Shown here: one piece after another, positions 14,746 through 63,592 of the stretch
How the letters are laid out: the number at the start of each line of letters is the position of its first letter
How positions within the stretch are numbered: the stretch's first letter is position 1
Source of the DNA: Cephalotus follicularis
Taxonomy: Eukaryota > Streptophyta > Magnoliopsida > Oxalidales > Cephalotaceae
NCBI GenBank assembly: GCA_001972305.1
Contig: BDDD01001622.1
Location: 174,760 to 238,759, forward strand
DNA: 64,000 bases
Direction: 5' to 3'
Notes under the pieces: model-generated
The model's database searches: none
The model's input: the letters and a program-made list of their open reading frames with translations, nothing else
What the model was told of the DNA's origin: nothing
Made by a program: the position numbers and the translations under genes

Positions 14746-14748
14746 CTT

Positions 14749-28021: not shown

Positions 28022-28023
28022 AT

Positions 28024-28035
28024 TGGTATCAGAGC
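28024..28035 (+). other. Primer-binding site of Angela A
   Basis: TGGTATCAGAGC, initiator methionine tRNA type, two bases after the LTR end CTTACA. Confidence 0.92.
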
Positions 28036-30138: not shown

Positions 30139-30177
30139 GTGGTTGGGGGTATAATCAAGGATAAGCTAAAATAGCTT

Positions 30178-30390
30178 ATGGATGAGAAATCTTGTTTCCA
30201 TTGTGGAAAACAAGGACATTGGAAAAAGGATTGCAAGGAGTTTCTTGCTTCCACTGCTGGCACCTCAGGTTCAGGTACCTACATGATTGAGCTTCATGTA
30301 GCTTCTAATATTAGTTGTACTTGGGTGTTAGACACTAGTTGTGGTGCTAATATTTACAATTCTTGGCAGGGTCTAAGAAGTGCAAGGTAG
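30178..30390 (+). pseudogene. Angela zinc knuckle and protease start (A)
   Basis: Encodes a CCHC zinc knuckle CFHCGKQGHWKKDC, which packages element RNA. The aspartic protease active-site region WVLDTSCGANI follows (related element: ILDSGCGTHM). The frame ends at TAG 30388-30390 (after GLRSAR), and the protease continues in the next frame (VDLRLGDGSRI). Confidence 0.86.
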
Positions 30391-31569
30391 CTTAGAGCTG
30401 AAGAAGCAGTGGACCTACGACTGGGTGATGGATCAAGGATCATTACTAAAGTTGTAGGAGTTTATGATTTACATTTGCCTTGTGGTTTTGTAATAAGTTT
30501 GAATCCTCGTTATTTAGTTGAAAACTTAATACATAACATTGTTAGTGTTTCGTACCTTTATAAATTGGGCTTGGAGCTTGATTTTAATACTTATGGTTGT
30601 TCTCTTTTGTCTTCTAACAAAAATATCATATGTGAGGGCCACATTGATAATGGGATTTATGTTTTGAATACTGATTGCAAAACGACAGTATCAATCGAAC
30701 AAGGAACTAAAAGACAAAGAGAGAATAATGAAATTAATCATTCCTATACTTGGCACTGCAGATTGGGTCATCCTGGTGAAGCAAGGATGTCAAAGTTCGT
30801 TAAGGATGGTCTTTTGGACATTCAGCACTTAGAGTCCTTTCCAACATGTGAATCCTGCTTGCTTGGAAAAATGACCAAATATCCCTTCTCCGGTCAAGGA
30901 GAGAGGATGGTGGATTTACTGGGTTTCATCCACACCGACGTCTGTGGACCTATGTCGGTCAGTGCACGAGGAGGATATCTTTACTTCATTACTTTTAGCG
31001 ATGATTTGTCATGGTACGGGTATGTGTTTCTGATGAAACACAAATCAGATTCCTTTGAGAGGTTCAAGGAATTTAGAAATGAAGTAGATAAGCAAACAGG
31101 TAAGCCCATTAAAACACTTCGATCAGATCGAGGGGGCGAGTACCTCTCTGCTGAGTTTCAGGATTATCTTAGAGATAATGGGATTCTCTCATAGTGGACC
31201 CCTCCAGGAACACCACAGCATAATGGTGTGTCCGAACGGAGGAAGCGGACCTCTTTGTATATTGTCCGGTCCATAATGTCTTTTGTAGACCTCCCTACCT
31301 CTTTTTGGGGTTATGCACTGGAAATAGTTGCATATGTCCGTAACCGTATTCCTTCGAAATCCATTCCTTCGAAATCCATTCCTTCTACTCCGTACCAAGT
31401 ATGGAGAGGGAGGAAACCCAGCCCGAACCATTTGAATGTTCGAAATCCATTAGAAGGTTGGAACCTAGTAACCTGGAGGCACGATTAGATCGGTGTCGGT
31501 TTGTGGGGTATCCCAAAGAAATGATAGGATATTATTTCTACCATCCTAGAGAACAAAAAGTGTTTGTTT
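30391..31569 (+). pseudogene. Angela protease end and integrase (A)
   Basis: Contains the end of protease, the GAG-pre-integrase zinc region (HCRLGHPGEARM and CESCLLGKM) and the integrase core with HTDVCGPMSV (first Asp), SDRGGEYLSAEF (second Asp) and, after an in-frame TAG at 31192, GVSERRKRT (glutamate). The TAG is CAG in related elements (SQWTPPGTPQHNG). The tail is frameshifted around 31440, and KVFV is cut by LTR H at 31570. The block IPSKSIPSKSIPS near 31345-31395 is a small in-frame tandem duplication. Confidence 0.88.
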
Positions 31570-34015: not shown

Positions 34016-34020
34016 TGTTT

Positions 34021-34834
34021 CGCGTACTGCAGTTTTCCTAGAGAAGGAATACCTACTCGCAGGAAGCAGTGGGAGCAAAGTGGAACTCAAGGAGTTTCCA
34101 CTGGAAGAAACACCATAGAGTGGAAAGGAGCTAGAGGCTAGTACCTCTAGAGACACATATGGGATTAGATCCCAACATGAGATTAGATCTCATACAGGCA
34201 CTCCTATTGTGAGGAGATCAGGCAGGGTTTCAGCAGCACCTAAGAGATATGGTTTTCTCGTGGAAGGCACTGATGAACCTAACATCATCGAGGATGATGA
34301 TCCTGCAACCTATCAGGAAATAATGCAAGGCACTGATTCCACTGCATGGTTAGATGCCATGAAATCCGAGATGGATTCCATGAACGCCAACCAGGTTTGG
34401 AACTTGGTCGAAGCTCCCGAGGGCATAGTGCCTATTGGTTGCAAGTGGATCTTCAAGAAGAAGATTGGCGCAGATGGAAATATTGAGACATATAAAGCGC
34501 GATTGGTGGTGAAAGGGTATAGACAACGACATGGGGTCGATTATACCGAAACTTTCTCATCGGTTGTAGTGCTCAAATCTATTCAGATTTTGCTTGCTAT
34601 AGCTACTCATTATGATTATGAGATATGGCAAATGGATGTCATGACTGCGTTCTTAAATGGAAATCTTGAAGAGGACATTTATATGTCCCAACCCAAGGGG
34701 TTTACATCCACTGAATCTTCGCACATGGTATGTAAGCTTCAGAGGTTGATTTATGGCCTAAAGCAAGCATCTAGGAGCTAGAAGATACGTTTTGATGAGG
34801 CTATCAAGTCCTTTAGCTTCATTAAAAACATAGA
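34021..34834 (+). pseudogene. Angela reverse transcriptase, first half (A)
   Basis: Resumes after LTR H with SRTAVFLEKEYL, then a Copia RT: GCKWIFKKKIGADGNIETYK, ARLVVKGYRQRHGVDYTETF and the catalytic aspartate region WQMDVMTAFLNGNLEEDIYM. IYGLKQASRS is followed by TAG (TGG in the family). The frame then reads KIRFDEAIKSFSFIKNID and is cut by the Tekay LTR at 34835. Confidence 0.9.
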
Positions 34835-34979
34835 TGTAACGCCCTGGATTTCACACGTTGTAATATTTGATTTCCAAATGTAATTTTGTTATTAATTAAT
34901 GAGAAAGACGAGTTTCCTGGCTAATAATTTTGTTTCGCAAATCAAAACACTTAGAAGTATGATTGTTGAAAAAATTGAC

Positions 34980-35125
34980 AGGGACAGTTGACTGGTGCAA
35001 TAGACCAGCCGACTGGTGGACCGTTTATTGGAACAGCCGACTGGTGGGATGAACCAGCTGACTGGAAGGCTGTCGAGCCACCTGGAAACCACATCCAAGA
35101 GGACAACCGACTGTCGGAAAAGAAT
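34980..35125. repeat. Variant motif group in T4 (GACTGGT type)
   Basis: Units such as CAGTTGACTGGTG, CAGCCGACTGGTGG and CAGCTGACTGG start at about 34988, 35009, 35037 and 35058, with gaps of 21, 28 and 21 bp. They occupy the place of the first TCGAC group of other Tekay LTRs. Confidence 0.82.
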
Positions 35126-35964
35126 AGCCAGCTGGTTTATGCTCTGTTTTATTTGCATGTGACGAAATCACATGCAACGACTGACAAGTAGAAGTGGGGC
35201 GACACCTGGGCATCATGCGGCTCATGCAGGGGACAGAGACAACACCTGCATGCTATCCAGACTGAATCTGAGGCAGTTTTTGACAGATGGTGCTTAGGAG
35301 TTTCCAAAGAGTGAAGGAAATAGCACATGGGCTTGCTTTTCCGGATGGAGGAAAGAGGGAGAGATTTTCTGGTGTTTAAAGCTTCTCCTTTATCCTCATC
35401 TACCGAGCTACTGAAACCAGAGAGGGACTGTGATTTTGGAAGGAAAGAAACATTCTGTGAGAGGGAAACAAGAGAGATTTTGAGAGATAGAGGGAGAACT
35501 CTACCTCCCCTGTTGAACCCAGAGAAACTAAGACTTGGAGCTTGAACCTGGGCTTGCAAACCGGACCTGGAAAGCTTGGAGGAGCTGTGGTTCGTACTAA
35601 AAGAGGTGGACTTACAGATTCCTAACTTGGAATCAAAAGGTAGGGGAAGTTATGTTTGTATTTTGAGTTCAAAATTACTGAATGACCTGCAATTGGTTGC
35701 CTGTTTGAGCGGTGATGTTCAGTTCATATGCCATGGTTACTGCTGGTTTTTCGTATGCCATGCTTACGGTTCAGAATTATTGAGTTTATGTACATGCATG
35801 TTGAGTTTTATCTTGGTATTAAATTACTAGATAAAATTCATGTTACTGTTGCGTTCTATGAACTTTAAGGACTGTTTGATGATATTCTGTCTTGAGAATA
35901 TATATGGATGCATGCAATGATCCATTTAAGTGATATATATTGAATTGCACGTAACTGGTTTCCC

Positions 35965-36150
35965 AAAAAAGTTGACTGTGGAAGCATGATAGACGGCTTC
36001 TCAACCGAAACAGTTGACTTTTGAAGGATAACAGTCGACTACCTGATGAACAAGTCGACTGGTAGAAGGAACCAGTCGACTACTCATTTACTGATTACTT
36101 AGAAAAGCCAACTGGTGAAGAATCCAGCCAACTGCCAAGCTGCTGCTTTG
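35965..36150. repeat. Variant motif array in T4 (GTCGACTGG type)
   Basis: Cores start at 36015, 36035, 36055 and 36076 (gaps 20, 20, 21), then 36108 and 36128 (gap 20). Text is of the form ACAGTCGACTAC, CAAGTCGACTGGT and AGCCAACTGG. It is in the same place as the second array of other Tekay LTRs. Confidence 0.85.
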
Positions 36151-37425
36151 TTCTCACTTGCTTAAAACGATGCGCGATGATCCCAACTCCGTTTAGGATG
36201 CATTCGAACATTTGTATGCATTGCATATGCACTGTTTACTGCCTGTTTATTGACTGATTATAAACTGTTGATGATTTCTAGATTACTATGTTAATTTAGA
36301 AATGCATATGTGAAACTGAAAATGACTATTTTGAATACAAAATAGATATTTGATAATAACACATTTTTGAACAACTGGGAAAGTGATTTCCACCCACTGA
36401 ACTATTTAAAAGTATTTTCCACTACTTTAAATACGTATTTCAAATGTTTATGACTCTTGAAAACAATTTGAAATGAACTTCCTGTTGTTGATCTAACGAT
36501 CATTACCGTACTATTTACTGCACTGTTTACTATGACTATTCACTGTTGCTCTATGAATTTGATGTGTTTGTGCTTGAGCCACTAGTTGCATGGCAGAGAC
36601 TACCAGCGCTGGCTAGTGGCAAGGTTGACCTAGGAGCCAGGAGTTGGCTGAGTAACTCACTGTACTATACTGTTGTCTTGCTTGGTTGCCTAGAGAAGGG
36701 ACCGAAGTGGGAGTGTAATGTGGGGCCAGCAGTTGGCGATGTTACACATACTGTCTGCCTGTTGTGGTCCCTTTGTGGACTTACTGTACTTTTTACTGGT
36801 CCTTTTCGGACACTACTGTGCCTGTTGATGTAGCCCTGGCCTGGCTACCACTGTATTGTTGTTTCATACATATATTTTTCATATGTGTCCTTACAGATAT
36901 TATACTGTACTATTAAATTATATATATATATATACTGCTATTTTCTACTGCACTACATCATCTACGCATACATTTCATGACATGCATGCAATGTTGATCC
37001 CAAAGTACTCTTATGACTTAGCCGAGTGAGGACAAAGCCTAACCCCGTACTTTACATATTGATGCAGTGGATCATCTTGGGAATCAGCACGGAGGAAGTA
37101 CAAGTTTTTAATAATTTTTTTATCAGGGGTTATGTCCCTTTGGGTGTTGTGTACTGTATTTTCCAGTCACTAGACTTTTGATGTTATTGGATAATGTATT
37201 ATGGATCACGCTCTGTTTTGTGGGTTTTTAACAATGACAGACTTGTATTGAGTAGCGTGCAGTATGGGATGCACATTACGTGTTTTCAGCTTATGAGTTT
37301 TAATGCTTCCGCAACTTATTTTTTATTTGAAAAGTTTAAATTTTATGGTATTTTCATAAGCTAAATCTTTATGTTAATTACCTTTACCACCTTTATATGT
37401 GTCTACCTGAAACCGAGGCGTGACA

Positions 37426-38096
37426 GTAGATGAGCCTTGTGTCTACCAAAAATAGGAAAACTCAGGTATCACTTTCTTGGTGCTATACATGGATGACATT
37501 CTGATCATTGGGAATGATGCAGAGATGCTGCAATTCGTGAAAGTATGGCTAGCCAAGAATTTCTCCATGAAGGATTTGGGAGAAGCCTCCTACGTACTTG
37601 GTATAAAGATCTAGAGAGATAGATCTAGTAGGTTGCTTGGGCTTTCCTAAAGCCAGTACATTAGCAAAGTGATGAAACGGTTCAGTATGGAGAATTCCAA
37701 ACGGGGCTTATTGCCAATAGGCCATGGAATTCAACTTTCCAAGAAGATGTCCCCGCAGACATTTGAGGAAAGGGAAGTCATGAGTCGGATGCTCTATGCT
37801 TCGGTTGTGGGATCGATCATGTATGCCATGATGTGTACTAGGCCTGATGTCGCACATGCCTTGGGAATGGCAAGTCGATTTCAGTCCAATCCTGGTTTGA
37901 CACATTGGGAAGTAGTCAAGGGGATCCTTAAGTACCTTAGAAGGATTCAGGATGCCTTCTTGATCTACGGTGGAGATAGTGAGTTGAAATTGGAGGGATA
38001 CACTGACTCCAGTTTCAATAGTGATCTGGATGATCACAAATCAGTATCGGGATATGTCTATATCTTGAATGGTGGTGGTGTGAGTTAGAGAAGCTC
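37426..38096 (+). pseudogene. Angela reverse transcriptase, second half (A)
   Basis: Continues RT with EPCVYQK. The catalytic box LYMDDILIIG is legible at about 37483-37512 (YMDD 37486-37497) but out of frame with the preceding codons, so a frameshift lies near 37450. From 37669 a 139-codon frame carries LPIGHGIQLSKKM, GSIMYAMMCTRPDVAHALGM and GYTDSSFNSDLDDHKSVSGY, the connection to RNase H. It ends at a TAG (38086-38088) where WK is expected. Confidence 0.88.
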
Positions 38097-38109
38097 AAAA
38101 CAGGAAACA

Positions 38110-38496
38110 ATGGCAGACTCCACAACTGAAGCAGAGTATATTGCAGCCTCAGATGCTGTAAAGGAGGGTGTTTGGATGGGTAAGTTCATCGCTGAACTTG
38201 GAGTGGTTCCAACCATTAGTCGTCCCGTAGTTCTCTACTGTGAAAATAATGGGATTGTTGCACAAGCCCAGGAGCCCAGGTCTCACCAATGGTCCAAACA
38301 TATCCAATGGCGTTATCATTTGATCCGTGAGATCATTGACAGAGGAGACATTGTATTAGAGAGGGTTGCCTCAGAGGAAAATTTAGCAGACCCACTCACT
38401 AAAGCTCTTAGTAGTAATGTATTCAAGCGTTATCGTAGTAGTATGGGCCTGAACTATAGGGCTTTATGGCTTATGGGCCAAGTGGGAGATTGGTAG
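38110..38496 (+). pseudogene. Angela RNase H (A)
   Basis: C-terminal RNase H of the Copia polyprotein. It contains STTEAEYIAASDAVKEGVWM (catalytic glutamate), VVLYCENNGIVAQAQEPRSH (D-to-E change in the usual YCDN) and SEENLADPLTKAL (last aspartate). It closes shortly before the 3' LTR, overlapping the polypurine tract. The acidic swap in YCEN may affect activity. Confidence 0.88.
38481..38490 (+). other. Polypurine tract of Angela A
   Basis: AGTGGGAGAT just before the LTR start at 38491, the typical Copia plus-strand primer site. The second Angela element has AGTGGGAGA before its LTR. Confidence 0.85.
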
Positions 38497-40691
38497 ATAG
38501 AGTGTGACCCGTCAAGTAACTAGGTGGTTCGATGTACTTGTACTCTGCTCATTGTATATACTATCTTGTTCTATTCATGTTACATTGTGCAAACTGAATT
38601 TTATTATTGGCATAACTGTATATGTTTTATCACATAATCGAAGCATGACACTGCTTACATATATGGTGCCCTATCACATCAAAGGGTTGGTTGTCGAGCC
38701 TAGGGCTATGAGAGTGACTTCCTTATTCCCTATGACTAAACTGTTCCAAGTCATAGGTTCACTTACTATGTGCATTTGTGAACCGGAGAGACTTGCCGTG
38801 TTGTGCTTGCTCGGGCGAATGGGAGGGTGGAGTATCTCATTGCCACTTGGGTTGAACCTTAAAGCTAGTGCGGGGTGCGTGCTGGGAGCATGTACACTAA
38901 ACATGACCCACCATGGGAATTCTATTTTGATGGTCACATATCCTGTGTCAGTGGAGTTTCCCATCTGAGACAGTAGTGTATAGACTCGATGATTCTAGCA
39001 AGTTCTTAATGGACTTGTCTGATCCTTAGACTTGAGTGGCTACTGTGCATTGCATAGAGACTGTCTGATTTTGATTTCTGCCCTATCCGGTTCTTTCGCG
39101 AGACTGGAAAACAGACAGATTTTGGGCCTTACAGAATTTATGTGAATGTAAGTGAGTGCGCAACAAGGAATCATCACACCAGATGTGAGGGTGATTCGCT
39201 CTATAGTATCTGCATTCATTGTGGACTTTGAAATACCTGGCCAGGTTATGAAGACCTGGAACCTAGGGTTTCCAGAAAGGCTTGTCGATAGACGTGATAT
39301 ATAAAATATGGATTTATAGATACCGGCATATCTAGGGTTGACACGTATCCTTATCTTAGGCCGTGATCGGAGCCGAGGATGATGAGGGATTAAAGAACGC
39401 GGGAACTGTTCTCAGGATAAAGTATCGGATGTATGAGAAACGGACTTAATTGTGGAAATTAATCAAGGGATTAATTTACACACCTGGAATGTGATAGTCA
39501 CAGGTTCAAAGTCTTAAAAGTAATCAAGGACTATTTTTGATAAGTTTACTTAAGAGCAAAGCAGCTTAGTAACACACCATCGTTACCGATTAATTCCGAA
39601 CTTTCGGGTCCCGCCTCACGAGTATATGTATTAGATACATATATCGCATTATTTTATAACGTGTGATAGAACATGTTATATCATGGTGTATTAGTGATGT
39701 TATGTGACTGGTTAGTTGACATAATATACCAATATGTTTTTTGGTATTAATGCATAATTAGTTTATGTATTTCTCTTGTCTCTCATATCTCTCTACACAT
39801 TTATTGCAAGGTTATTGCATGGCTATTGCATGGACCAAACAAGTTTTGTCATTATGCAAAGGACAAAACATGCTTTGCTTTTTAATTATGCTTGTATCAT
39901 GCAAAGGCAAAATGGTAAGCCTTATATCATGCAAAGTCAATATGGTATGGCACCAAAAATAAAGAAAATGGAATCTCTATTCATGGCAGGGATCTTGATA
40001 ACATGTTTTTTTGTTTATTGGCCGCCTTAATCATGTCCACATTTGGTGGATCATTACCATGCATGAGAAAACGTGTTTTCTTGCGTATTTGGCCGCTTTT
40101 ATCATGATCCACAATTGGTGGATCATGACCATGCAGCTTGAATGCATAAAAGCAACCAATTGACTCACTTTTCAGTGGTCTTGTTTTTGCTCCTGTCGAG
40201 AACGTGTTTTTCCAAGAAAGAGAGAAAGCAAGTGTGCAATAGTTTGTTCTTAGTGTATAACAAAATAGGGAGAAAGAAAACAATACCTAAACGCACAACA
40301 ACTTGATTATTATAGGTGGTGTATTGGTTGCATTGAGCTCTACATTCCCTGCATTAATCCTAGATTAGGATTAGTGATATAGGTTTTATTTTACGTTGGC
40401 TATTCCGCTGCGATCCGTTCCTGAGTGAAATCTTGAAGTTTCAGAACGGAAACTTGAAGGAAAGTGTTTTGGTCGCTTGGTATAAACTTTGTCCTTCATT
40501 ATTTATATGTATATATATAAAAATCTAATCGTTTATCTGTTAGTTGTTGAGTAGAGATCCTAGCATGATTATATTCATTTATGGTATTGGATAACGGCTG
40601 TTCTTTTTTGAGCCACTTTAATGAAAATTAAAGTTGAACAATCTATCTACCTAACGCCTAAAATGACCATAATCTTCGTTTTATTCTTACA
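38491..40691 (+). repeat. 3' LTR of Angela A
   Basis: A 2201-bp LTR starting TGGTAGATAGAGTGTGACCC and ending TTTTATTCTTACA. It is collinear with 8172-10111 and with about 27851-28021. It defines the missing 78 bp of the 5' LTR. Open frames at 38504-38968 and similar are LTR sequence shared with the 5' copy. Confidence 0.9.
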
Positions 40692-40769
40692 GTTACCTAG
40701 CGTTCAACCCATTACTTCACAACCGTTCACTTGCGGTATAAATTTAATTCTTTTCAAAATTCATGAACA
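40692..40769 (+). repeat. Athila-like LTR G, right end
   Basis: The text GTTCAACCCATTACTTCACA and CACTTGCGGTATAAATTT to ATTCATGAACA matches the LTR end of element B (reverse complement of 25228-25305: GTTCGACCCGTTACTG, CACTTGCGGCTATAAAT, ACGTGAACA). It is therefore the last 78 bp of LTR G, cut off by Angela A. Confidence 0.85.
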
Positions 40770-42262: not shown

Positions 42263-42483
42263 TGGAGAAGTTGGTATGCTCAATGCTCTTTAGGCGCTAT
42301 ACAATTAATCGTTTGCTTTCTCTCTGCCTTGAAGGAATGATCTACTCAGGATGCATAGGCTAGTATGCTCGACAACCATGTGGAGTGGTCTGCTCGGCAT
42401 GCGTGGACTAGCCATGCTCGGCATCGTCATGAATAGGTATGCTCGACACGCATGGAACTAATTTGATGCGCGACCATGTGGAC

Positions 42484-42665
42484 TGGTATGCTCGGCACGC
42501 ATGAGCTAGTATGCTCGGAAGGCACATGGTCCTGCATGCTTGGGAGACGCATGGTCTGGCATGCTCGGGAGACACGTGGTCTGGCATGCTCATGAGATAC
42601 ATGGTTTTGCGTGCTCGGGAGACACATGGTTTGGCATGCTCGGAGACCTTATGGACCGGTATGCT
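42484..42665. repeat. 25-bp minisatellite in LTR E
   Basis: About seven units of CATGCTCGGGAGACACATGG with TCTGG or TTTGG. The middle units keep an exact 25-bp length. The minus-strand frames across it (for example MCLPSTQNHVSHEHARP) are just translations of the repeat. Confidence 0.85.
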
Positions 42666-43456
42666 CGGCACACATGAGCAAGTCTGACCCCGAGAAGAGA
42701 AGCTCTAAGTCCTCTAGAAACTAGCCTGGCTCAGCATTGGGGTTCTCCTCTAAGTACTTATTAAGTACTGAGCTTAACATGTCCATTCCAAGAGAAAACA
42801 CAACCAAGGTCCTAGTCTAACAAGTAGAATAACAATCACAACATTACAAACATCACACACAGCAATACATACAAACAATCACAAATAACAAACAACACAC
42901 ACATGTGCTATTAGGAGCTCAACATATAGCAACCTACCAAACATTGGTTGAAAAAGGAGAATATACTACTTCATGCCTCGCACTAATCCTCCTTGGATTT
43001 TTAGCTGCTACGCGTCCATGGCCTTGTTTCTCCTCTTCACTCTTTCACTGCTTCCTTAGCGCAAAGAGATGGGAATTTATGCTGGAGCACAGGAGGAATG
43101 GAACTCTCCTGAGAAAGCTCCTGTATTTGTCTCCTTCTTCTTCTTTCCCGTGACACCTGGCCCCATCTCTACTCTCTCCCTTCCCTCAATTCTTTTAGAA
43201 CGGGAGTGTGTGAAAATGCCCAAAAAGCGTCTCGCAGGCGTCTTCCATTTTATAATGACTTGGAGAAGATTCTGGAGGTTTCCACACACACACAGCCGCC
43301 TCCACAATTCTTGGGCCAATTCCCTTCTCTCTTGGTCCATTATAGGCCCATCAATCCCTTCCTAAATCCATTCCATATCTGACCCAAAAGGGAGAGAACA
43401 ATTTCTAAGGCCCAATATATATAGAATAATTCTTTATAATATTCAGGGGCATTACA

Positions 43457-45174
43457 TCACATCAGTGATACGATAACACCGGTCCTCAATGATCCTGGTG
43501 AACGATATGATAACGCTACCCCTCAGTGGTCCTAGCTAACCATTTACCCATTGGTCCACCCATAATGTGGTGTTCCGCATAGGTCCACCCCTAAAGTGGT
43601 GTCCCAATACCCAATACCCAATTCCCCCCATATGATGTGATCTAACACCCATAACCTTCATGACGGAAGTGAAGATTATAAATGGATTATCTTGTTAGGT
43701 CTCAAACATTACCAACCATCAATCACAACCATGCAAAGCCCGTAACCCATGACCATGTAGCCATTTAAAGGATAGGAACCTAACCATAAAGGATCACATG
43801 AGATCCATCCATCAATACCATTTCAAAACAATTTACATAACCATTTTTTCATAACCATTTCTTGGTCCGTATCGAAGCTATAAAAAGAATGGAGAGGAAG
43901 TCCAACTAGGATATTCGGGTCCAAACATCCCAATTGAACTAATCTAACCATTTATTGAAAACCACTTTAAAAATCCTTTTGGAAATTGATTTTGAAGGTC
44001 ATTTTGTTTAAATAAGGGTTCACATAGGTTACAAGGCCTTATGGAGACTTCCTATGGGACCCATTTGAATATAAAAGTGTTTGGGGTTGAAAAATGGTTG
44101 AAAACATTGTGTTTTACAAAAAACAGGGCACTAAGTACGGACCCCTTTGCTCCAAAGCATCGACTGTTAGCGGCAAAGCATCGTCGGTTTCGCACAAGGT
44201 GTCAACGGTTAAGGCGTTATAACTTAAGCATCGACCCTTGTACGAAGCGTCGATCGCTTAGCAACACATAAAGCGTTGATCATTGCGCTAGGCATCGACC
44301 GTTATCCCTTAAGCAAAGCGTCGATGATTTCGTACAAGGCGTCGATGGTTAAGGATCGGATCCAAAAGCATCGACCAATTGCACGAAAGCGTCGACTGGT
44401 CACTCACCAAGCGTCGACGCTTTTGATCAAAGCATCAATGGTCATGCAGTAGCAGATAGTTCATCGACAGTTCAAAAGTGGATTCAAAACCAGTTTAAAT
44501 CCATTTAAATCGTTGAAAACTCAATCCAGAGGAAGCTAGAAGCCCCCTATGGTCGATTACAATTTTAAACACCTTTAAAACTCTATTATCCATGCTCGTA
44601 ATCCATAATTGAGAAAGAGAAGAGAATAGGCCTATACACCTATGATTCTCAATTCTCTTTTTGATTTCCATTTAAATCCACAATTAATCATAGCAATCAC
44701 CCTAACTCATCCATCTAACCTATATCCATCCATTAATGACCATACAAGCATACGATTCAATCAATATGCATGGATTCAAAGCATATATGTCGAACATACC
44801 TCAATATCATTGAGAATGAAGAATAAGCATATTGGCTGCTTGAATATTTGTTCTGCTTCTCCCTTCAAGTTCTACACTTTGCCACGAACCCAAGGACTCC
44901 TTTCTTTCTCGATTCCACCCACTCTCTCTCTAACTCACTCTCTCTAGAATAGGAGCTAGAATTGAAAATTGAGAATAAAAAGAGTTAACTCGTCTAAATA
45001 TAGACTACTTTGGGCAAAAATTTGGAAAACATACCCTAGGTTCCATAACCCATAAACAGACATAAAAGAGAAAAATACTATAATGTACATACAATCCATG
45101 TCATCCATGAATACAATATTGTACAATACCATATAAATACAAACAATCCGTACATCTATAACTCGGGGCTAACA
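43457..45174 (-). repeat. LTR D1 (partial)
   Basis: The minus strand starts TGTTAGCCCCGAGTTATAG at 45174. It has a TATA-like TATATTT at about 44993, then an R/U5-like region. It is cut on its 3' side at 43457 by Gypsy element E. Its first 690 bp or so are homologous to D2 (45175-45823). No coding sequence is seen. It includes a TCGAC array at 44150-44420. Confidence 0.7.
44150..44420. repeat. TCGAC motif array in LTR D1
   Basis: Cores start at 44160, 44181 and 44202 (21 and 21 bp), 44231 and 44250 (19), 44321 and 44342 (21), and 44371 and 44392 (21). Flanks are AAAGCATCGACTGTT and AAGCGTCGAT. The 21-bp phase persists even where cores have mutated to TCGTC or TCAAC. Confidence 0.85.
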
Positions 45175-45823
45175 GTAAATCAGTTTAGAACTCGATCCAA
45201 ATGAAGCTATAAGCCCCTAGGGTCGATTACCACTTGAAAACAGTTTTAAAACCCTTATATCCATACTCATAGACCATAAATCGATAGAGGAATGAGATTT
45301 GGGAAAAATGTCCCAAACTCACAATTTCTCTCAGATTTCTATTTCAATCCAGATTTAACCATATCATTTACCGTAACTCATCCATCTAGCCATGATCTAT
45401 CAAACCATACTCATATCATCATACGATTTAGTTTTATATGCAAATTCAAATCATATATGTAGAACCTACCTCAAAAACTGTTGAGATGTAGATCTGGAAG
45501 GATCTCTTGTTGAACTCTTGATCTGGTCCTTCCTTCAAGTTCTATACTCCACCACGAATCCAATGGCTCATTCCTTGCTTGATTCTGACCTCTATCTCTC
45601 TAACTCCTTCTCTCACTGTCTCTCTAGAACTTGGAGAAGAAGAGAAAAATGGGAATAGAAGAGTCAGCTCGCCTATATATAGGCTTCCTTGGGTGAAAAA
45701 CCCAAAAGCTCACCCAGGGTTCTATTCAACCCCCATAACCCATGAACATCAATGAAAGAGAAAAAATACCATAATATCATATACCATCCATAAATACAAT
45801 AGGGTACAATACCATATAAATAC
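45175..45823 (-). repeat. LTR D2 (partial), related to D1
   Basis: Homologous to about 44485-45160 in the same orientation. Shared text includes GGTCGATTAC, TAACTCATCCATCTA, CTTCAAGTTCTA and CATATAAATAC. It has a minus-strand TATATATAGG promoter-like box at about 45674. It is cut on the right by the CACTA element at 45824 and on the left by D1. Confidence 0.72.
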
Positions 45824-46245
45824 CACTACTAAAAAAGAGGTCAATGGTGAGGGCACTTCCCCTCGGCGAGGGCATGGCGATGGGAAAAAACACTCACCAA
45901 ACTCTTCCTCGTAGTCAACGTCATGAGGGCACGACGAGGGTACGGTGAGGGTTAGGTCTTCTTGCTGTATATTGCCCTCGCCACGGCGAGGGTATACATA
46001 GGGCTGGATCCCCTCACCACGGCAAGGGCAGGCTCCGCCTTCTCGCCACGCCTCGTCATGGAAAGGGTATAGCCAGGGTAGCGCCCCTCACCATCATCTG
46101 CTCGTACATGCATATACCCTCGCCAACCCTCGCCATGGCGAGGGTAATGGCCCTTGTCATTTGGATTTCCTGCAGAATTGCGAGGGCATTACCCTCGTAA
46201 TGCCCTCGCCATACGCTCGCAATTCTGCAGATTCTGTTGGTGGTT
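45824..46245. repeat. CACTA terminus and subterminal repeats
   Basis: Starts CACTACTAAAAAAGAGG. It is followed by many direct and inverted copies of a core like CCCTCGCC(A)/GGCGAGGG (about 45850-46210), which in CACTA elements are transposase-binding repeats. At 46170-46230 the arms CTGCAGAATTGCGAG and CTCGCAATTCTGCAG face each other around CCCTCG-type repeats, so the segment can fold into a hairpin. Confidence 0.78.
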
Positions 46246-46479
46246 ATATCAGCAAAATCCATTCCCTATATCCAAGAAAAACCTGCAATTCATTTTAGCA
46301 GCAGCCACATTAACAGTTTATATTTCACAATTGTGTAATTGACTTCATCCATAACTACTAAATGACACATTTCATTCACATTAAACTAAAAAAAAATGTA
46401 AATGAGCTTTATAGTATATTTACAAAAAGTGTAATACGTTTACAGAAAAAATCTTAAAATGTGTCAAACTCAACAAACT

Positions 46480-48453: not shown

Positions 48454-50490
48454 TGTAACACCCCCGATTCGGAACCGGGATCACTCCCGATTCGGGATCG
48501 GTGTGTCACACAAAACTGAACTAAAACATATCAAAGATCTTAATCTTAGTATTAATCATCATCAATACATGGTGGTTCTAAAAATCTGAAAACATGTATA
48601 ATCATGAAACATAAACTGAATCTGAAACATAAACTGAATCTAAAACATAATATGAAAACTTTATCATAGACCAAAATGTTATAATCCAAAAATCACAATA
48701 CTGTTTAGATAACTGGCGTATACACGACCATATCACTACTAAAAACATAACCAGATCAAACCCCTAGATGATCCTCTGACATAGGGTAACTCTCTCATCA
48801 CACTTGCCCATGCTATCCCTGAAAACCTGCCGCATGGAAACAAAAACGCGGCTGAGCAAACTTCAGTACGGATATAGAATCATAAAACAGAAAATGATAA
48901 TTTAAAAGATAGAAAATACCTGAAACTTTAAGTAACATATACCTTATGCATAAAATAATTTAGACATGATTTTCAAAAGCGAAGGTAAGTAGTCATTCAA
49001 TCAATTCAAAACGAATATCGAATTTTCAAAGCGTTATTCAATTTCAAAACATAATCCAAGTTCAAAACAGTATCCAAATCAAACGTTCAAATTACTTTAA
49101 CATCAACCATGTTAAAGATTTTAAAAATAAAAACTTATCTGATTCCATAATATCATCATAGAGATCCAAACATATAACCGAGACTTATCCGATTTCGAAA
49201 TCTCATTACCGAGATCCAAAGCGCATACACATATGCGAAGTTGCAAGGGGTTTAGAAGGCCCACATGCCAAACGGAAAGACGTGTACGGCACTGCACAAT
49301 CAATCCCCAAAATCCGAATCCTTAACATATCAGATACTAGAGTATACCCACATGCCTCTATCACAAAATCGGATCCATAAATCCACCTCATGGGATTTAT
49401 TCAAAACAAAGAGAGACGTCGTAGTCGAATCACACTACTACGGAAGTGTCACGTCCCCGTGCTAGGCCTACGACGTGCCTATGGTACACCCCAGATGTGG
49501 CAAATATCTCTGTATATCCTTATTTCAAAAACATTACTTTATTTCTAAAAACAATTTAAAAACGTAAACACATTTTCTAAACATTTTCTGGACTTTAGCA
49601 AAATCATTACATAACATCAACTCATTTATTTTCAACTATAAAGAGATGATCGTATCATATTTCTTAACATATCATAGCATAAGAATAAAGTAAAAAACAT
49701 TCAATCCTATAAATGTCAACTGACTTTTATTTTCAAAATCGTATCGAATCATAAAACATAGCCAAGTTCATAAAACAAGAGGAATCACATTTGAATTCAT
49801 TTCAGTAAAACCAAAGGAATAAACCAAGAACGAAGAATCCGTACGTTATCCATACAGTAAAACTATCTCTTTACTATAAAAACAGTAGGAGGGTATCAAG
49901 GAATGAAACATTCGTACATTTTCACAAAAACATATAACTGATTTATTTTTATAAAATCACCAGAGTATATCAAGGAACGAAGATCTGTACGTTATTCATA
50001 AAGAAAAGCTATATTTTTATTTACTACAGTAAAACCAATAGGAGCGCCAAAGAAAGAATGATCCGTACCTCATGCAATCACCAAAATAACCTTAAGAATA
50101 TAAATCGAGACTTCTCTAGAGCGCTCCTCAGTTGTTGTAAACATCTAACAGAAATAAAATCGTTCTCATAAGGACTTGAAATAAAATAAGACCTCAACTC
50201 ATGGGTCATTGTACACCAATCATGACCATATAAGATAACAATAGGTTTTATACGTCCAATTCACAGAAGTCTCATCTAAACGTAATTTCAAATTCACTAA
50301 GGTAAGTCCAATTTGTCCAATTCATCCAATTCCAAATCATAATACTAGTTCAGCTCATAATATCATAAAACGATTACAGAAATACATAATTCAACCGAAA
50401 ACAGAATTTGACGGAGTAGGGTTCAGAGTTTACCGAACGCTGTCGAAACAAAGCACAGAGTCATAATCACATCGCAGAACTGGAACGGAA
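48454..50490. repeat. LTR-like fragment C, unclassified
   Basis: Begins TGTAACACCCCCGATTCGG in CACTA sequence and ends where Tekay LTR sequence takes over near 50490. The first 60 bp hold paired CCCGATTCGG/CCGGGATC repeats. The order of weak landmarks (GCGGCTGAGCAAAC near 48852, GTGCTAGGCCTACGACG near 49460) suggests a Gypsy LTR in minus orientation. No coding region or primer-binding site was found. The frames at 49121-49465 carry no known domain. Confidence 0.5.
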
Positions 50491-50619
50491 AACAAACCGA
50501 CTATGTGATATGTATCTGCATGTTTGTTTTCTGGCTTGATTACATGTCGTCTTGCATGTATATGGACTGTGTTGGATATTGTTTGTCACTTCATGAGGAA
50601 GAAGACGACTGGTGCTCAA

Positions 50620-50890
50620 AACACATCGATGCATTTGGGAAACATCGATGCCTTTGGGCTGTCTGCTTGGATACTGACGTATTATACGTCGACACCTAAG
50701 GTTCCTACCTTAACGAGTCGACGCCTTAAGCAATACGCTGGTGTTTAAGGTTCCATACCTTGAGCGTTGATGAGTATAAGTTGGACATCGACGTCTTCAA
50801 AATAGTGGAAAACGCTTACGCTAAGGACTTGAGTGTCGACGTTTACGGGACAAAGACATCGACGCCTAATTATAGACATCGATGCCTTCT
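50620..50890. repeat. TCGAC motif group in T5
   Basis: Cores or TCGAT variants start at 50626 and 50645 (19 bp) and at 50836, 50859 and 50879 (23 and 20 bp), with others between, for example CATCGACGTC near 50786. Confidence 0.75.
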
Positions 50891-51685
50891 TGTACTATTT
50901 GGAAGTTTTCTTACTTAATGATACAAAAGGATCCCGGTTCTGATTAGGATGCATTAGAGCATTTGTATGCATTGCATACGTACTGTTTACTGCCTGTATG
51001 ATAATAGTTTAGGAATTTCTATGATTTCTAAATTGTTATATTGATTTACAAACACACATATGTGTTTGAAAACTACTAGGTTTGTGTACGAAATATGAAA
51101 TGAGTATTGTTATATTTTCGAACATACTGGGAAACTAATTTCCGCTGCTAAGACGGTTTAAAATATTTGCCATCTACTGGAAATACATATTTCACATGTT
51201 TACGACTTTGAAACATAGTTCAAATAAACTGCCTGTTGTTGATCTAACGATCAGTACTGTACTATTTACTGCACTGTTTACTATGACTATTCACTATTTA
51301 CTCTGTGAATTTTATGTGTTTGTGCTTGAGCCGTACTAGATGCGTGGCGGGGACTGCCAGCGTTGGCTAGTCGTAGGGTTGACCTTGGGGCCAGGAGTTG
51401 GCTGGGTAACTCACTGTACTATATTGTTTTCTTGCTTGGTTTCCTGGAGAAGGGACCGAAGTGGGAGTGTAACATGGGGCCAGGAGTTGGCTGCGTTGCA
51501 CATACTGCCTGCCTGTTTGTTAGTCCCTTTGTGGACTTACTGTACTGTTTGCTAGTCCTTCTCGGACATTACTGTGCATATTGATGTAGCCCTGGCCGGG
51601 TTACTACTGTACTGTTATTGCATAAATATATTTTCATATATATGCCCGTACTGTTACTTTACTGAACTGTAAACTTATATATATA

Positions 51686-51687
<2 letters not shown>

Positions 51688-51727
<40 letters not shown>
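51688..51727. repeat. (AT)n microsatellite
   Basis: Uninterrupted TA/AT run within Tekay LTR T5. The same LTR position is AT-rich in the other copies, and in T2 it is a deletion joint. Confidence 0.95.
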
Positions 51728-51730
<3 letters not shown>

Positions 51731-52218
51731 TGGTGTTTTTACTGTACTGCATCATCCACGCATACATCTCACGATATGCATTTAGTGTTGGTCCCAAATT
51801 ACTCTTATGACTTAGCCGAGTGAGGACAAAGGCTAACCCCCTACTTTACAGATTGATGCAGTGGATCGGCTTGGAATCAGCATGGATGAAGTACAAGTTT
51901 TTAATAATGTTTTTAACAGGGGTTATGTCCCATTTGGGTGTTGTGTACTGTATTTTCCAGTTACTAGACTTTTGATGTTATTGGATAATATATTATGGAT
52001 CACGCTCCGTTTTGTGGGCTTTTAACTATGACAGACATGTATTGGGTAGCGTGCAGTATGGGATGCACGTTACATGTTTTTCAGCTTATGAGTTTAATGC
52101 TTCCGCAATTGATATCTTGTTTGAAAAGTTTAAATTTTACTATTTTTGCATGAGCTGAATCTTAATGTTAATTGCCTTTACCACTTTTATGTGTGTTTAT
52201 CGAAAGTGGGGTATGACA

Positions 52219-52376
52219 TTCCTTTTCTGAGTTCAGACGAACAGACCGAAACTCATCCACTCTAGTACCTCTCTCCGAAGTGTCAACCCAATCACACTTG
52301 AATACAACAACTCTGTTGTCTTTTTCGTAGAAATCGAGCTCCACAACGTCGACCAAGGCTCCGTAGAAGTCACTAT
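52219..52376 (-). pseudogene. CACTA DUF4216 domain, C-terminal half
   Basis: On the minus strand it encodes SDFYGALVDVVELDFYEKDN and RVVVFKCDWVDTSERGTRVD. This is the DUF4216 pattern that follows the transposase core in plant CACTA elements. Its N-terminal half is at 62602-62751, and both are in one frame once Angela B is removed. It ends at LNSEKE against Tekay LTR T5. Confidence 0.85.
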
Positions 52377-54193
52377 TGTTAGAGATGAAGTGCTGTGAGC
52401 CAGTGTCGAGCTTGTATTTACTTTATCTTGTATAAACGATTTATGAATAAAATAAATATGTTTATGTTTTATTATTGGCTATGAGTTCGTTTTATTAATA
52501 CATGCTTTATTAATTGTAAATGAATGTCCTGGAATAAGGTTAGAGAACCAAGTTCATGATGAGATCATGATGTGAGAGTTAGAATCTCGGTGTACTTTAT
52601 TTCAAATCTTCCTGGTCATAGGATTGACACTCAGGGCATGTTCAATCCAGATAGACCAGCACGTACTGTCGGATCGGTAAGCAGAGGGTGACTGATCTCA
52701 CACTCACTCGCATGGATGATGCTATGACAACTACGTGGGTGCTCATTTAATGAGTTCGCTGAAGGTGATTATTGATAGAATATCTATATGGAGTTTTACT
52801 TACATTTCAGAAAGAATTCTAGTTTTACAGCAATGCATGTGGTCCTTGGACATGAGCCGCATTGGATGTCTTGTGCATATGGTGCGGTGTTTTGATGATG
52901 CTTAAATACATATTCTATGAAGTGTATACAGGCATTAGTTGGACATAGTACGCTTATGTATGGAGGCATGTGAACTGGCAACAATGAATTCATTACTTCT
53001 AGTGAAAGAAGATTATGCTCAGGATGATTTTTGTTAGCGATTAAACTCCTGGGCAGGCTAGCCACGATATCAATAGTGTGATATCATTGGTTGAATATTA
53101 GAGGCGCACCTCTAATATTATTGAGGCTAATGAAAGGTAGTCACGAGGCTAAAGATTAAATTACTGGGGTCTGACATAATTTGTACCCTAGATTTAATTA
53201 GAGCATTGTCAATGGAGGGACTATACGTGCGTGTACCTGTAAAAAGTGGTTCGCAAATTATTCATATTACCTGGGGCTCGTTATGCATTGCTAGATCTCG
53301 ATGTCGACCAGTAGGATGCCCGAGATTAAATTGATAAATTAATTTTGGAAGAAAAGAATTAAAAGAGTTTTAATTTGAAATGTCCGAGGGAATATTTTTA
53401 TGTGATAATAAATATTTAATTGGATAATTGTGAACATCACAATTTTAATCCTACGGCCAGTGTAATAGTAAACCCATTGGGTCGCACACAATACGGGCTA
53501 ATATTTTCAACACATGATGAGAGAAAAATAATTGGGATTTTATCTCCTAATTATATTTAATGATATTAAATATATAAATATATTTAATGATATTAAATAT
53601 ATAAATATATTTAATGATATTAAATACATAAATATAATTAATAAGATTAATTATATTAAAGAAAGAAAGAGATTTAAAAGGAAAAGGATTCCTTTTAAGT
53701 AAGAGGCTTGTTGAATTAGAAGGATGTGTTTAAGTGGGATTAGTCTAGCAGCTAATATATAAACACATCTCTCTATTCACAATTAAGTTGTTGCTCTATT
53801 TTGCAAAACCCTAGCCACCCTCTTTCTTTCTCTCTCTCATACAAGCAATCAAGTGTTGATAGCTTGCGAAGCAATTGTGTTGGAGATTGAAGCTTGCTGT
53901 GGATACCTTAGAGGCTTTCTATACTTGGAAGCTAGAACCGTTTCATACGTTCAACAAATAGTTGTGCTTTTGGAAGCAAGAAGACACGTAGGAAGAAGGA
54001 AGGAGCCGCTCCATTCATGTGAGTAATTCTGACTGCTCCTCCCTATTGATTTATATCTAACTATATATGTATGCTCAAAAGATCCTGGAAACGAACCCTA
54101 TGGCTTAAAATTCATGAGATGATCATACAATATATGTTTTAGGGTTTTATGCATATAGATATTTTATCCCCTAAATCTCCATAGGTTCCAACA
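52377..54193 (+). repeat. 5' LTR of Angela B
   Basis: 1817 bp, TGTTAGAGATGAAGTGCTGTG to GGTTCCAACA. Contains an AT-rich tandem repeat at about 53555-53640, a block TAATATATAAACACATCTCT that could serve as promoter (near 53753) and a CT-rich stretch after AACCCTAGCC. Confidence 0.92.
53555..53645. repeat. AT-rich tandem repeat in Angela B LTR
   Basis: Units of TTTAATGATATTAAATATATAAATA repeated about three times with a diverged fourth. The 3' LTR (about 61988-62060) has a shorter, diverged version with GAGATTAAATATATAAATAT. Unit number and sequence thus differ between the two LTRs. Confidence 0.82.
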
Positions 54194-54196: not shown

Positions 54197-54210
54197 TGGT
54201 ATCAAAGAGG
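54197..54210 (+). other. Primer-binding site of Angela B (mutated)
   Basis: TGGTATCAAAGAGG, three bases after the LTR end CCAACA. It differs from the TGGTATCAGAGC type by one base (A for G). Confidence 0.8.
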
Positions 54211-54324: not shown

Positions 54325-54570
54325 CAAAAGCGTCGACGCCTTTGAGAAAAGCGTCGACGTCTACGCGTGATACCAATGCAGAAAATCGTACCAAGAAGCA
54401 TAAGCGTCGACGGTTTTGAGAAAACTGTTGACGCCTACGAAGTAAAAGATCGACGATTTTGAGAAAACGCATTGACGCTTACGCATATAACAAAGCGCCA
54501 TAGGTCGACGAAAGCGTCGACACAAGCGTCGATGGCGCATGAACGTCGACGCTTTGTATAAAAACGTAGA
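54325..54570. repeat. TCGAC motif array in Angela B leader
   Basis: Cores start at 54333 and 54354 (21 bp), 54407 and 54428 (21, second mutated to TTGAC) and 54450 and 54472 (22). Further motifs occur in 54500-54560. It lies downstream of the primer-binding site, outside the LTR. Confidence 0.82.
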
Positions 54571-60809: not shown

Positions 60810-62601
60810 TGTTAGAGATGAAGTGATGTGAGCCAGTGTCGAGCTTGTATTTACTTTATTTTGTATAAACGATTTATAAATTCAATAAAGTTGTTTATGT
60901 TTTATCAATGGCTATGAGTTCGTTTCATTAATACATGCTTTATTAATTGTAAATGAATGTCTTGGAATAAGGTTAGAGAACCAAGTTCATGATGAGATTA
61001 TGATGTGAGAGTTGGAATCTTAGTGCACTTTATTTTTAATCTTCCTGGTCATAGGATTGACACTCAAGGCATGCTCAATATGGATAGACCAGCACATACT
61101 GTCAAATCGGTAAGCAAAGGGTGACTGATCTCACACTCACTCGCATGGATGTTCCTATGACAACTATGTGCGTCCTCATTTAAAGAGTTCATTGAAGGTG
61201 ACTATTGATAGAATATCTGTATGGAGTTTTACTTACATGTCAGACAGAATTCTAGTTTTACAACAGTGCATGTGGTCCTTGGACATGAGCCGTCACTGGA
61301 TGTCTTGTGCATAGGGCGCTGTGTTTTGATGATGCTTAAATATATATTCTATGAAGTGTATACAGGCATTAGTTGCACATAGTACGCTTATGTATGGAGG
61401 CATATGAACTGGCAACACTTAATTCATTGCTTCTAGTAAAAGAAGATTATGCTCAGGAAGATTTTCGTTACCGATTGAACGTCTGGCCAGGCTAGCCACG
61501 ATATCAAGAGTGTGATATCATTGGTTGAATATTAGAGGGGCACCTCTAATATTATTTAGGCTGATGAAAGATAGTCACGAAGCTAAAGATTAATTTATTA
61601 GGGTCTGACATAATTCATACTCTAGATTTAATTAGAGCATTGTCAATTGAAGGACTATAAGTGCATGTACCCGTAAAAAGTGGTTCGCAGATTATTCATA
61701 TTACCTGGTGGTAGTTATGCATTGCTAGATGTCGATGTCGACCAGTAGGATGCCCGAGATTAAATTGATAAATTAATTTTGGAAGAAAAGAATTAAAAAA
61801 GTTTTAATTCGAAATGTCCAAGCGAATATTTTTATGTGATAATAAATATTTAATTGGATAATTGTGAGCGTCACAATTTTAATCCTACGGTCAGCGTAAT
61901 AGTGAACCCTTAGGGTCACACACAATACGGGCTAATATTTCCAACACATGATGAGAGAAAAATAATTCGAATGCTATCTCCTAATTATATTTAATGAGAT
62001 TAAATATATAAATATATTTAGTGAGATTAAATATATAAATATAGTTAATGAGATTAATTATATTAAAGAAAGAAAGAAATTTAAAAGGAAAGGGATTCGT
62101 TTTAAGTAAGAGGCTTGTTGAATTAGAAGGTTGTGTTTAAGTGGAATTAGTTTAGCAGCTAATATATAAACACATCTCTCTATTCACAATTAAGTTGTTG
62201 CTCTATTTTACAAAACCCTAGCCACCCTCTCTCTTTCTCTCTCTCATATAAATAATCAAGTGTTGATAGCTTGCGAAGCAATTGTGTTAAAGATTGAAGC
62301 TTGGTGTGGATACCTTGGAGGCTTTCTATTCTTGGAAGCTAAAACAGTTTCATACATTCAACAAGTAGTTGTGCTTTTGGAAGAAAGAAGACACATAGGA
62401 AGAAGGAAGGAGCCATTCCATTCATGTGAGTAATTATGCCTGCTCCTCCCTATTTATTTATATCTAACTATATATGTATGCTCAAAAGATCCTGGAAACG
62501 AACCATATGGCTCTATATTAATGAGATGATCACACAATATATGTTTTAGGGTTTTATGCATATAAATATTTTATTGCCTAAATCGCCATAAGATTCCAAC
62601 A
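60810..62601 (+). repeat. 3' LTR of Angela B
   Basis: 1792 bp, TGTTAGAGATGAAGTGATGTG to GATTCCAACA. It is collinear with 52377-54193, with many substitutions and small indels. Confidence 0.92.
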
Positions 62602-62751
62602 ACTACAACTACCATTCCAAGTGCTACCCTTGATCATTACGCCCCAATTTTGAGTTATTGAGGTCCTCAATGCATCTTTAGTGTGAAACTTGTATCCGTT
62701 TATGACATAGCCCTTCCACGACCTCACTTTTGTGGCAGGTGCACTTGCTAA
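62602..62751 (-). pseudogene. CACTA DUF4216 domain, N-terminal half
   Basis: The minus strand encodes APATKVRSWKGYVINGYKF, then HTKDALRTSITQNWGVMIKG and STWNGSC, the start of DUF4216. It continues in frame into SDFYGALVDV at 52376 if Angela B is removed. Upstream it is cut by LTR F at 62752. Confidence 0.85.
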
Positions 62752-62894: not shown

Positions 62895-63490
62895 GCGTCG
62901 ACGCCTTTGTACAAAATGAACTGCAAAGAAAACATCTACCTCCCAGTTATAGCATCGACGTCCGTACAAAAAGAAGTCGACTACTTCCAGAAGACGTCGA
63001 CTACATTCAAGAAGACATCGACTACTTCAGTGAACACATCGACGCGTTTAGTCATTTTTCAAGACAGAAGCTACTGTATGAATTTGCACTCAAAGACATC
63101 GATCCTCAACCAAAAGACATCGACGTCCAAGTAAAAGACATCGACATCTTTATATAGAGATCGACGACATTTTCAACATTCCCAGAAAAAGCATCGACTC
63201 CAAGGAAAGAGATCGAGGCGACATTCAACCTGGAGTTTCCCAGAAAAGACATCGACGCCTTTCAAAAAGAAGTCGACGCCTTTTCAAATGGACAACACCC
63301 GGGAAAGCTGGAACGGCTAGTTCAACCACTTCCAACGGCTACCAAGTAAAAGACATCGACTCCTTTGGAAAAGAAGTCGACGCCTTTTCAAGAGAACAAG
63401 AATCGAGAAAGCTGGAACGGCTAGTTTAACCACTTATAACGGCTATCAACCAAAAGACATCGACGCCTTTGGTAAAGAAGTCGACGTCTT
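62895..63490. repeat. Long TCGAC motif array in LTR F
   Basis: About 18 motifs. Core starts include 62955, 62977, 62997, 63018 and 63039 (22, 20, 21, 21); 63099, 63120, 63141 and 63161 (21, 21, 20); 63252 and 63273 (21); 63356 and 63377 (21); and 63460 and 63481 (21). Typical text is AAAGACATCGACGCCTTT followed by AAAGAAGTCGACGCC. Confidence 0.9.
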
Positions 63491-63500
63491 TGTTCCAGCA
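63302..63500. repeat. Tandem duplication with AACGGCTA in LTR F
   Basis: Two units of about 100 bp, each reading GAAAGCTGGAACGGCTAGTT, then an AACGGCTA copy, then one 21-bp motif pair. Confidence 0.85.
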
Positions 63501-63592
63501 GAGATAAATCCAACAAATGCAACTCACATTCTTTAATCAAAAGCTTCCACAATTTAAGCAACGGCTATAAACCTTTTCAGGATATAAAAGGA

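Follow-up and report, generated by a model that had tools for sequence, protein, structure and literature searches.

Arrays of a near-palindromic TCGA motif with a spacing of about two helical turns in Ty3/gypsy-type and Ty1/copia-type retrotransposons of a Cephalotus follicularis contig

The window, by which we mean the whole 64-kb stretch of DNA that was analysed, is a nest of LTR retrotransposons, as indicated by self-comparison, primer-binding sites (PBS), termini and target-site duplications. We apply the lineage labels Athila, Tekay, SIRE and Angela to its elements as a working assumption. On the minus strand, an Athila-type element (10809-26803; PBS 25204-25221) is flanked by the target-site duplication TGGAA (10804-10808 and 26804-26808) and was inserted in a plus-strand Tekay-type LTR, termed T6, which is thereby split into two parts, one at 10112-10808 with a pair of cores at 10376/10396 and the other at 26809-27857 with a pair at 27178/27197 and a further core at 27248. 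The Athila-type LTR A1 (25228-26803, minus strand) contains a 51-bp tandem repeat and has 13 of its 14 cores at 26160-26595. A second Athila-type LTR, A2 (6644-8165, plus strand), shares 77-80% identity with A1 where the two match outside the array and carries cores at 6803-6871 and 7067-7094, some of which are decayed (6824, 6845). Nested in the Athila-type element is the Tekay-type element T1 on the plus strand, with a left LTR at 15979-18462 (clusters at 16135-16258 and 17017-17357) and a right LTR at about 21463-24117 that is 97.8% identical to the left one and has the same array. The best relative of the T1 protein shows 89% identity, those named among the 120 relatives listed come from flowering plants, and one carries the name Ty3-gypsy. 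The segments 12634-14512 and 14509-16387, which take in Athila-type coding sequence as well as the T1 LTR at its 5′ end, form a tandem duplication of 1,875 bp with 99.95% identity. Seen together with a run of N at 18463-18487, this may be either an artefact of the assembly or a duplication of very recent date.

Three further LTRs are of the Tekay type. T2 (4053-6643, minus strand; PBS 4037-4048) has clusters at 6306-6428 and 5335-5524, and T4 (about 49700-52219, plus strand), the 5′ end of which is undefined, has cores at 50626-50884. The solo LTR T3 (34836-37425, plus strand) lies within a copia pol and contains cores at 36035/36055/36076 in a variant, CAGTCGACTRC-like context. This array (36034-36080) is of another flank type; its cores are nevertheless 20-21 bp apart, and it is located 1.2 kb into the LTR like the other Tekay-type arrays. 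The array D1 (44160-44468), which an earlier note on this DNA had assigned to an LTR, is located outside the minus-strand LTR that ends at 41357 and probably starts near 43456, and the solo LTR around it (44005-46367) is a candidate only. The minus-strand LTR itself contains a 25-bp tandem repeat, ATGCTCGGGAGACACATGGTCTGGC, at 42363-42666.

The T1 and Athila-type elements encode RVT_1/RT_RNaseH domains of the Ty3/gypsy type, and the elements copia A and copia B encode RVT_2 domains of the Ty1/copia type. The 5′ LTR (27840-28024) of copia A (27840-40694) seems to be reduced to its last 185 bp and abuts T6 directly. The LTRs of copia B, near 52379-54193 and 60812-62602, are 90.7% identical, and both contain tandem repeats of 27 bp that are AT-rich and show internal inverted symmetry (53548-53678 and 61982-62067). 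The copia B array (54333-54550, plus strand) is found in the leader, about 125 bp downstream of the PBS (54197-54208), and is followed by a TATA-like box at 54557; this stretch (54333-54563), being downstream of the PBS, could be an internal promoter. The array is not part of the LTR. For the name Angela, the analysis covered the Ty1/copia domains. Finally, array F (62898-63486, plus strand) comprises 17 RTCGAY cores in a U3-like part, includes a 104-bp tandem repeat and precedes a TATA-like box at 63583-63589. We take F to be the LTR of a SIRE-like Ty1/copia type that starts near 62755 and has no second LTR or coding region inside the window. A chance open reading frame spanning the array had no relatives among 91 candidates. 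Five of the eight AACGGYYA sites of the window are located in F (63312-63567), a sequence that resembles the MSA box of G2/M-phase MYB3R factors. Besides, GAGAGA/TCTCTC is threefold over-represented in the window as a whole (91 versus 31 expected).

The sequence TCGAC occurs 213 times in the window as compared to 63.5 ± 8.1 times, with a maximum of 82, in 100 shuffles, and TCGACG/CGTCGA is the top over-represented 6-mer (101 versus 9 expected). Of the 266 TCGA sites, 93 have another such site at a distance of 18-23 bp, counting redundant copies, and stacking these yielded a symmetric near-palindrome of 18 bp, AAAGRCRTCGAYGYCTTT, beyond which the flanking letters carry little information. Position -1 is G (0.62) or A (0.34) and position -3 is A (0.47) or G (0.41). 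ACGT is therefore not conserved, and the bZIP factors put forward earlier are not supported as a general explanation; a reading as bZIP C-box (GACGTC) was likewise rejected as general. RTCGAY cores are concentrated in the designated LTR and leader sequences, with 126 in 31.2 kb versus 20 in the other 32.8 kb when redundant copies are taken in, and they number 17 in F, 15 in T1, 14 in A1, 11 in T2, eight in T4, seven in A2, six in T6 and three in T3. The copia A and copia B LTRs contain one core each, so that the arrays are not common to every LTR or family here. The observed/expected ratio of CpG is 1.42 in the arrays (1.38 in array F) and 0.63 in the remainder. The exact paired motif was present in no record of a viral contig collection. 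The right T1 LTR, the copy at 14106-14512, the right LTR of copia B and the copia LTR at 8178-10110 were left out of the non-redundant counts, and the copia A and B LTRs were not used when spacing, dialects and orientation were counted. D1 was treated as part of the minus-strand LTR in the core-count, phasing, matrix and dialect tests, as a wider stretch in BLAST and as the candidate 44005-46367 in the spacing test; the half-site counts are independent of this choice.

Distances between TCGA sites peak at 19-21 bp, with 9, 17 and 20 pairs at 19, 20 and 21 bp, respectively, redundant copies included. In ten units, with redundant copies removed, adjacent gaps of up to 130 bp considered and cluster ends held, 36 of 80 gaps measured 19-22 bp (5, 11, 17 and 3 at 19, 20, 21 and 22 bp), whereas random placement, repeated 5000 times, gave 6.8 such gaps on average and never more than 16. 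The enrichment and the spacing confirm the TCGAC pairs and arrays reported in the earlier note. The core positions it listed are right, except that 6824, 6845, 44181 and 44202 do not read TCGA, the sites being decayed; in A2, such decayed cores (TCAA, CTGA) occupy 21-bp positions. Taken singly, the preferred spacing is significant against random placement in four of the ten units, namely T1 (6 of 12 gaps), A1 (6 of 12), F (10 of 16) and D1 (4 of 11), but not in T2, T6, T3, T4, A2 and the copia B leader (P 0.05 to 1), where either the numbers are too small or the effect is absent. Some of the gaps were produced by the tandem duplications in A1 and F. For adjacent gaps of 25-130 bp, a test of helical phase gave P about 0.02 (n = 38, duplicated gaps included), and no phasing at 10.4 bp was observed for pairs 80-200 bp apart (P 0.64; best period 10.2), making helical phasing between clusters suggestive only, and we place no reliance on it. 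Strong phase statistics obtained with jittered sites for pairs 25-130 bp apart were set aside, because this null also destroys the 20-21 bp pairs and the tandem copies.

The TCGA cores resist change in four of the five Tekay-type LTRs, and where Tekay-type LTRs have diverged, their cores still occupy corresponding positions. Within the 5′ part of T1, T2, T6 and T4, 35 of 65 aligned cases of TCGA were kept, as compared to 21 of 156 for other NCGN and 761 of 5268 for CpG-free 4-mers; the corresponding Fisher value of 1.5e-9 is too small, since the LTR pairs are not independent and the aligner may favour such sites. For the single pair T1-T2, the numbers are 8 of 14 for TCGA versus 5 of 31 (P 0.011). 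T3, which was excluded from the count of 65, lacks the flanks of the motif, and none of its pairings with another Tekay-type LTR had a TCGA aligned in both (0 each). With T3 included, all ordered pairs over the whole alignment gave 72 of 184 versus 132 of 801 and 8926 of 33120.

Matrices of the motif were trained on 32 Tekay-type, 13 Athila-type, 7 D1, 2 copia B and 17 F sites. The Tekay-trained matrix found 24 Athila, 10 D1, 10 B and 18 F sites, with means of 0.5, 0.45, 0.1 and 0.25, respectively, in 20 shuffles. All 20 combinations of training and test family exceeded the shuffled mean (20 shuffles each), from the weakest transfers, F to D1 (3 versus 0.05) and Athila to D1 (5 versus 0.05), to the largest count, Athila to Tekay (44 versus 1.05). 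In line with the earlier note, carriers from different superfamilies have both the motif and its two-turn spacing in common.

The best reading of the arrays is that they are bound by a protein of the host. We consider it reasonably probable that they are enhancer-type cis-elements for one dimeric DNA-binding host factor, which the elements exploit convergently. They would act as cis-regulatory elements located in the U3 part of the LTR, with a single instance in a leader. Each near-palindrome would be the site of a two-headed, i.e. dimeric, protein, and sites 19-22 bp apart would put adjacent dimers on the same face of the helix and allow cooperative binding, whereupon the bound dimers may drive transcription or keep the CpG-rich stretch accessible. 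Were the factor owned by the host, the Tekay-type and Athila-type Ty3/gypsy elements, copia B and the SIRE-like F could all have gained the motif under selection for expression and have expanded it partly through local tandem duplication. A TATA-like box (TATAWAW) follows the last clustered core within 250 bp in four of nine units (F, A2, T2 and the copia B leader) and is missing from this interval in five (T3, T4, T6, A1 and, after its second cluster, T1). The mechanism fits best to F, where the cores are located 143-726 bp into an LTR that is incomplete in the window and the TATA-like box at 829. Precedent is provided by host factors that bind LTR boxes (PMC12786077, PMC3907296).

In favour of the host factor we count, besides these boxes, the matrix transfers, the short cross-family BLAST matches that with one exception are located in the arrays or at their edge, the 19-22 bp gaps, the concentration of cores in LTR and leader sequences, the CpG richness of the arrays, the cores kept in the four Tekay-type LTRs and the independent variation of half-sites described below. 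Against it count the units without TATA-like box, the significance of the spacing in only four units taken singly, the weak or absent long-range phase, the behaviour of T3, the single cores of the copia A and B LTRs, the strong folding of the arrays as RNA and the common orientation of the sites, as a simple symmetric homodimer predicts otherwise.

Alternatively, array modules might have been physically moved between families by template switching, gene conversion or capture of a seed of ~40 bp and then amplified, which would mean exchange instead of convergence. Cross-family BLAST matches were 19-67 bp in length and located in the arrays or at their edge, with the exception of one 43-bp match between A2 and copia A, and D1 gave no cross-family match at E 1e-3. 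The arrays are thus nearly the sole DNA common to these families at this sensitivity. The same matches and the mapping of the elements, with a bounded Athila-type insertion and T1 nested inside it, led us to reject nested copies of one element as the cause, an explanation raised in the earlier note. Exchange is favoured by a 41-bp stretch that is 92.7% identical between F and T1 and a 38-bp stretch that is 92.1% identical between A1 and F, the linker included, and by the nesting of T1, which shows that the two types met. However, matches rarely extend beyond two motifs and their linker, and the linkers between neighbouring cores mostly differ, both within and between families, so that exchange is not needed. 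TTTGG-AA-like linkers recur in T1, T4, T6 and F, which leaves room for some of it. In addition, the matching core positions in diverged Tekay-type LTRs suggest old, vertically inherited arrays. As the origin of the arrays, we hold exchange between elements to be unlikely.

A second alternative concerns the palindromes as such, which might be kept or tolerated as RNA or cruciform structure, with paired palindromes forming hairpins of ~18 bp that are sources or targets of small RNAs. Indeed, all five arrays that were folded as RNA were more stable than their shuffled counterparts (z -3.3 to -6.2), and the same proposal exists for the LTRs of maize Sireviruses (PMC10760457, PMC5311732). Such folding, however, is an automatic consequence of repeated palindromes, and hairpins require no upper spacing limit of 22 bp. 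Moreover, the half-sites vary independently at position -1 (42/33/17/10, Fisher 0.65), i.e. they do not covary there. The orientation of the sites likewise speaks against structure. Asymmetric sites combine a GG half with a GA or AG half, and in 22 of 24 distinct sites the former is downstream with respect to the element, a common orientation that spans both strands of the window (T1 4:1, T2 2:1, T6 1:0, T4 2:0, A1 4:0, A2 3:0, B 1:0 and F 5:0, with no asymmetric sites in T3 and D1). By our own reasoning, the preferred orientation gives A·C mismatches in a sense-strand hairpin, while the reverse one would give G·U. Despite the strong folding, the independent halves and the orientation render an RNA hairpin unlikely as the primary reason for the arrays. 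The common orientation also argues either against a homodimer of full symmetry or in favour of a partner reading only one side. A sense strand rich in A is not supported as its cause, the AT skew outside the motifs being -0.05 in A1, -0.04 in A2, -0.06 in T1 and -0.09 in T4; in the array zones of F, B, T6 and T2 it is positive (0.29, 0.15, 0.06 and 0.03, respectively).

It is very unlikely that the arrays are bound by a VANC-like protein encoded by a transposon and shared by several families, which would lift silencing in trans. The arrays do resemble VANC targets in being dense short-motif arrays in non-coding transposon DNA, expanded in tandem (PMC5735166), and they are CpG-dense; but the Tekay, Athila and copia types have no coding element in common, and outside its own family the VANC21 motif is not dense (PMC5735166). 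We give hardly any credence to neutral minisatellites, in which slippage would have produced the 20-21 bp repeats and coincidence or mutational bias the shared letters, as suggested by the clear tandem duplications in A1 (51 bp) and F (104 bp), given that the same motif is present in unrelated families, that in four Tekay-type LTRs the cores have been retained longer than other CpG sites and that linkers mostly differ from repeat to repeat.

Returning to the host factor, the half-sites come in two dialects that cut across the superfamilies and that are presented here as new, like the resistance of the Tekay-type cores to change and the common orientation. They differ at positions -4,-3, where GA defines the AAAGAC dialect and AG the AAGC dialect, the remaining half-sites having GG or other letters. 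GA prevails over AG in T1 (15:1 of 30 half-sites), A1 (15:1 of 28) and F (17:4 of 34), which are of the AAAGAC dialect, as well as in T4 (4:1 of 16), which we class as mixed. AG prevails in the AAGC units T2 (1:7 of 22), T6 (0:3 of 12), A2 (0:8 of 14), D1 (0:9 of 22) and the copia B leader (1:6 of 16), and T3 has neither (0:0 of 6). The split is observed inside the Tekay type (T1 versus T2 and T6, Fisher 1.4e-5), inside the Athila type (A1 versus A2, 1.2e-5) and between F and B (0.003), values that are too small because half-sites are not independent. Among the units of known age, those with the AAGC dialect are T6, which is older than the Athila insertion, and copia B with an LTR divergence of 9.3%; those with the AAAGAC dialect are T1, with an LTR divergence of 2.2%, and the Athila-type element with about 3% in a 375-bp LTR piece. 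AAGC is older than AAAGAC in all four, four being few.

Tentatively, the host factor could have shifted its preference over time, with unrelated retrotransposon superfamilies following in parallel, although we regard this as doubtful. Older arrays (T6 and copia B, and also T2, A2 and D1, for which the age is not known) would then represent AAGC-RTCGAY-GCTT and younger ones (T1 and A1, and also F, again of unknown age) AAAGAC-RTCGAY-GYCTTT, the shift having occurred partly through changes at matching Tekay-type positions. If true, the dialect of an array would be a fossil record of an arms race between host and transposons common to whole element classes, and, with the two dialects, counts of LTRs of known age would allow a test of whether unrelated transposons adapted in parallel to a host factor that changed. 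Regulatory boxes common to LTRs are as a rule attributed to a single family and a single stress factor. If Ty3/gypsy and Ty1/copia elements are both served by one motif at a fixed spacing, much of the retrotransposon load of a genome may be under the control of one host protein, which could be identified through one pull-down.

In the literature covered, mostly papers outside subscription journals and these in part, we found no report of this motif or of phased arrays common to these superfamilies. The earlier view that no system like this has been described is nevertheless too broad, as palindromic arrays of Sireviruses were reported in 2010 (Bousios et al., PMC2829016) and a palindrome shared by Sireviruses and Helitrons is known from maize (PMC10760457). 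The latter, CACCGGACNNNGTCCGGTG, also ranks first among the motifs in structured regions of Helitrons and resembles our case as a single palindrome across transposon classes in one genome. Its sequence is different, though, maize Ty3 elements are generally without an obvious structure peak, and phased spacing is not described for it in the sections drawn on (PMC10760457). The VANC target arrays of VANDAL, in which motif and binder change together, are alike in being dense, non-coding and grown in tandem, but they are found in a family of DNA transposons, have a motif of their own (YAGTATTAY in the case of VANC21) and are bound by a protein that the transposon encodes (PMC5735166). The heat-responsive LTR of ONSEN likewise has the binding site of a host factor upstream of its promoter (PMC3907296); a promoter free of CG and CHG, as in ONSEN, is at odds with the CpG ratio of the window arrays.

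The closest likeness is to the boxes of Sireviruses, which were described in 13 elements as CpG islands upstream of the TATA box, with 8-32 copies per element, 92% of the copies found in LTRs being in the upper half, and similar boxes in elements with little other homology (PMC2829016). The Vitis box CGGTCGACCG includes GTCGAC and the Tnd-1 box ACAATCGATTGT includes TCGA (PMC2829016). A dyad-symmetric LTR box in at least eight copies, by which Sirevirus boxes are recognised, is present in F, T1, A1, T2 and T4 and lacking in T6, A2 and T3. With the exception of Tnd-1, the Sirevirus boxes have a CGG-CCG core, whereas the window arrays have TCGA with R/Y at -1/+4 and AAAG/CTTT flanks, and a fixed spacing of 20-21 bp, present in the window, is not mentioned for Sirevirus boxes in the sections drawn on (PMC2829016). 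The boxes were called Sirevirus-specific among the elements compared, a set that, as far as described there, consisted of Ty1/copia elements (PMC2829016), while the window motif is carried by two Ty3/gypsy types and a copia leader. The arrays of the window look like Sirevirus boxes in kind and are unusual in that one motif extends across Ty3/gypsy and Ty1/copia elements.
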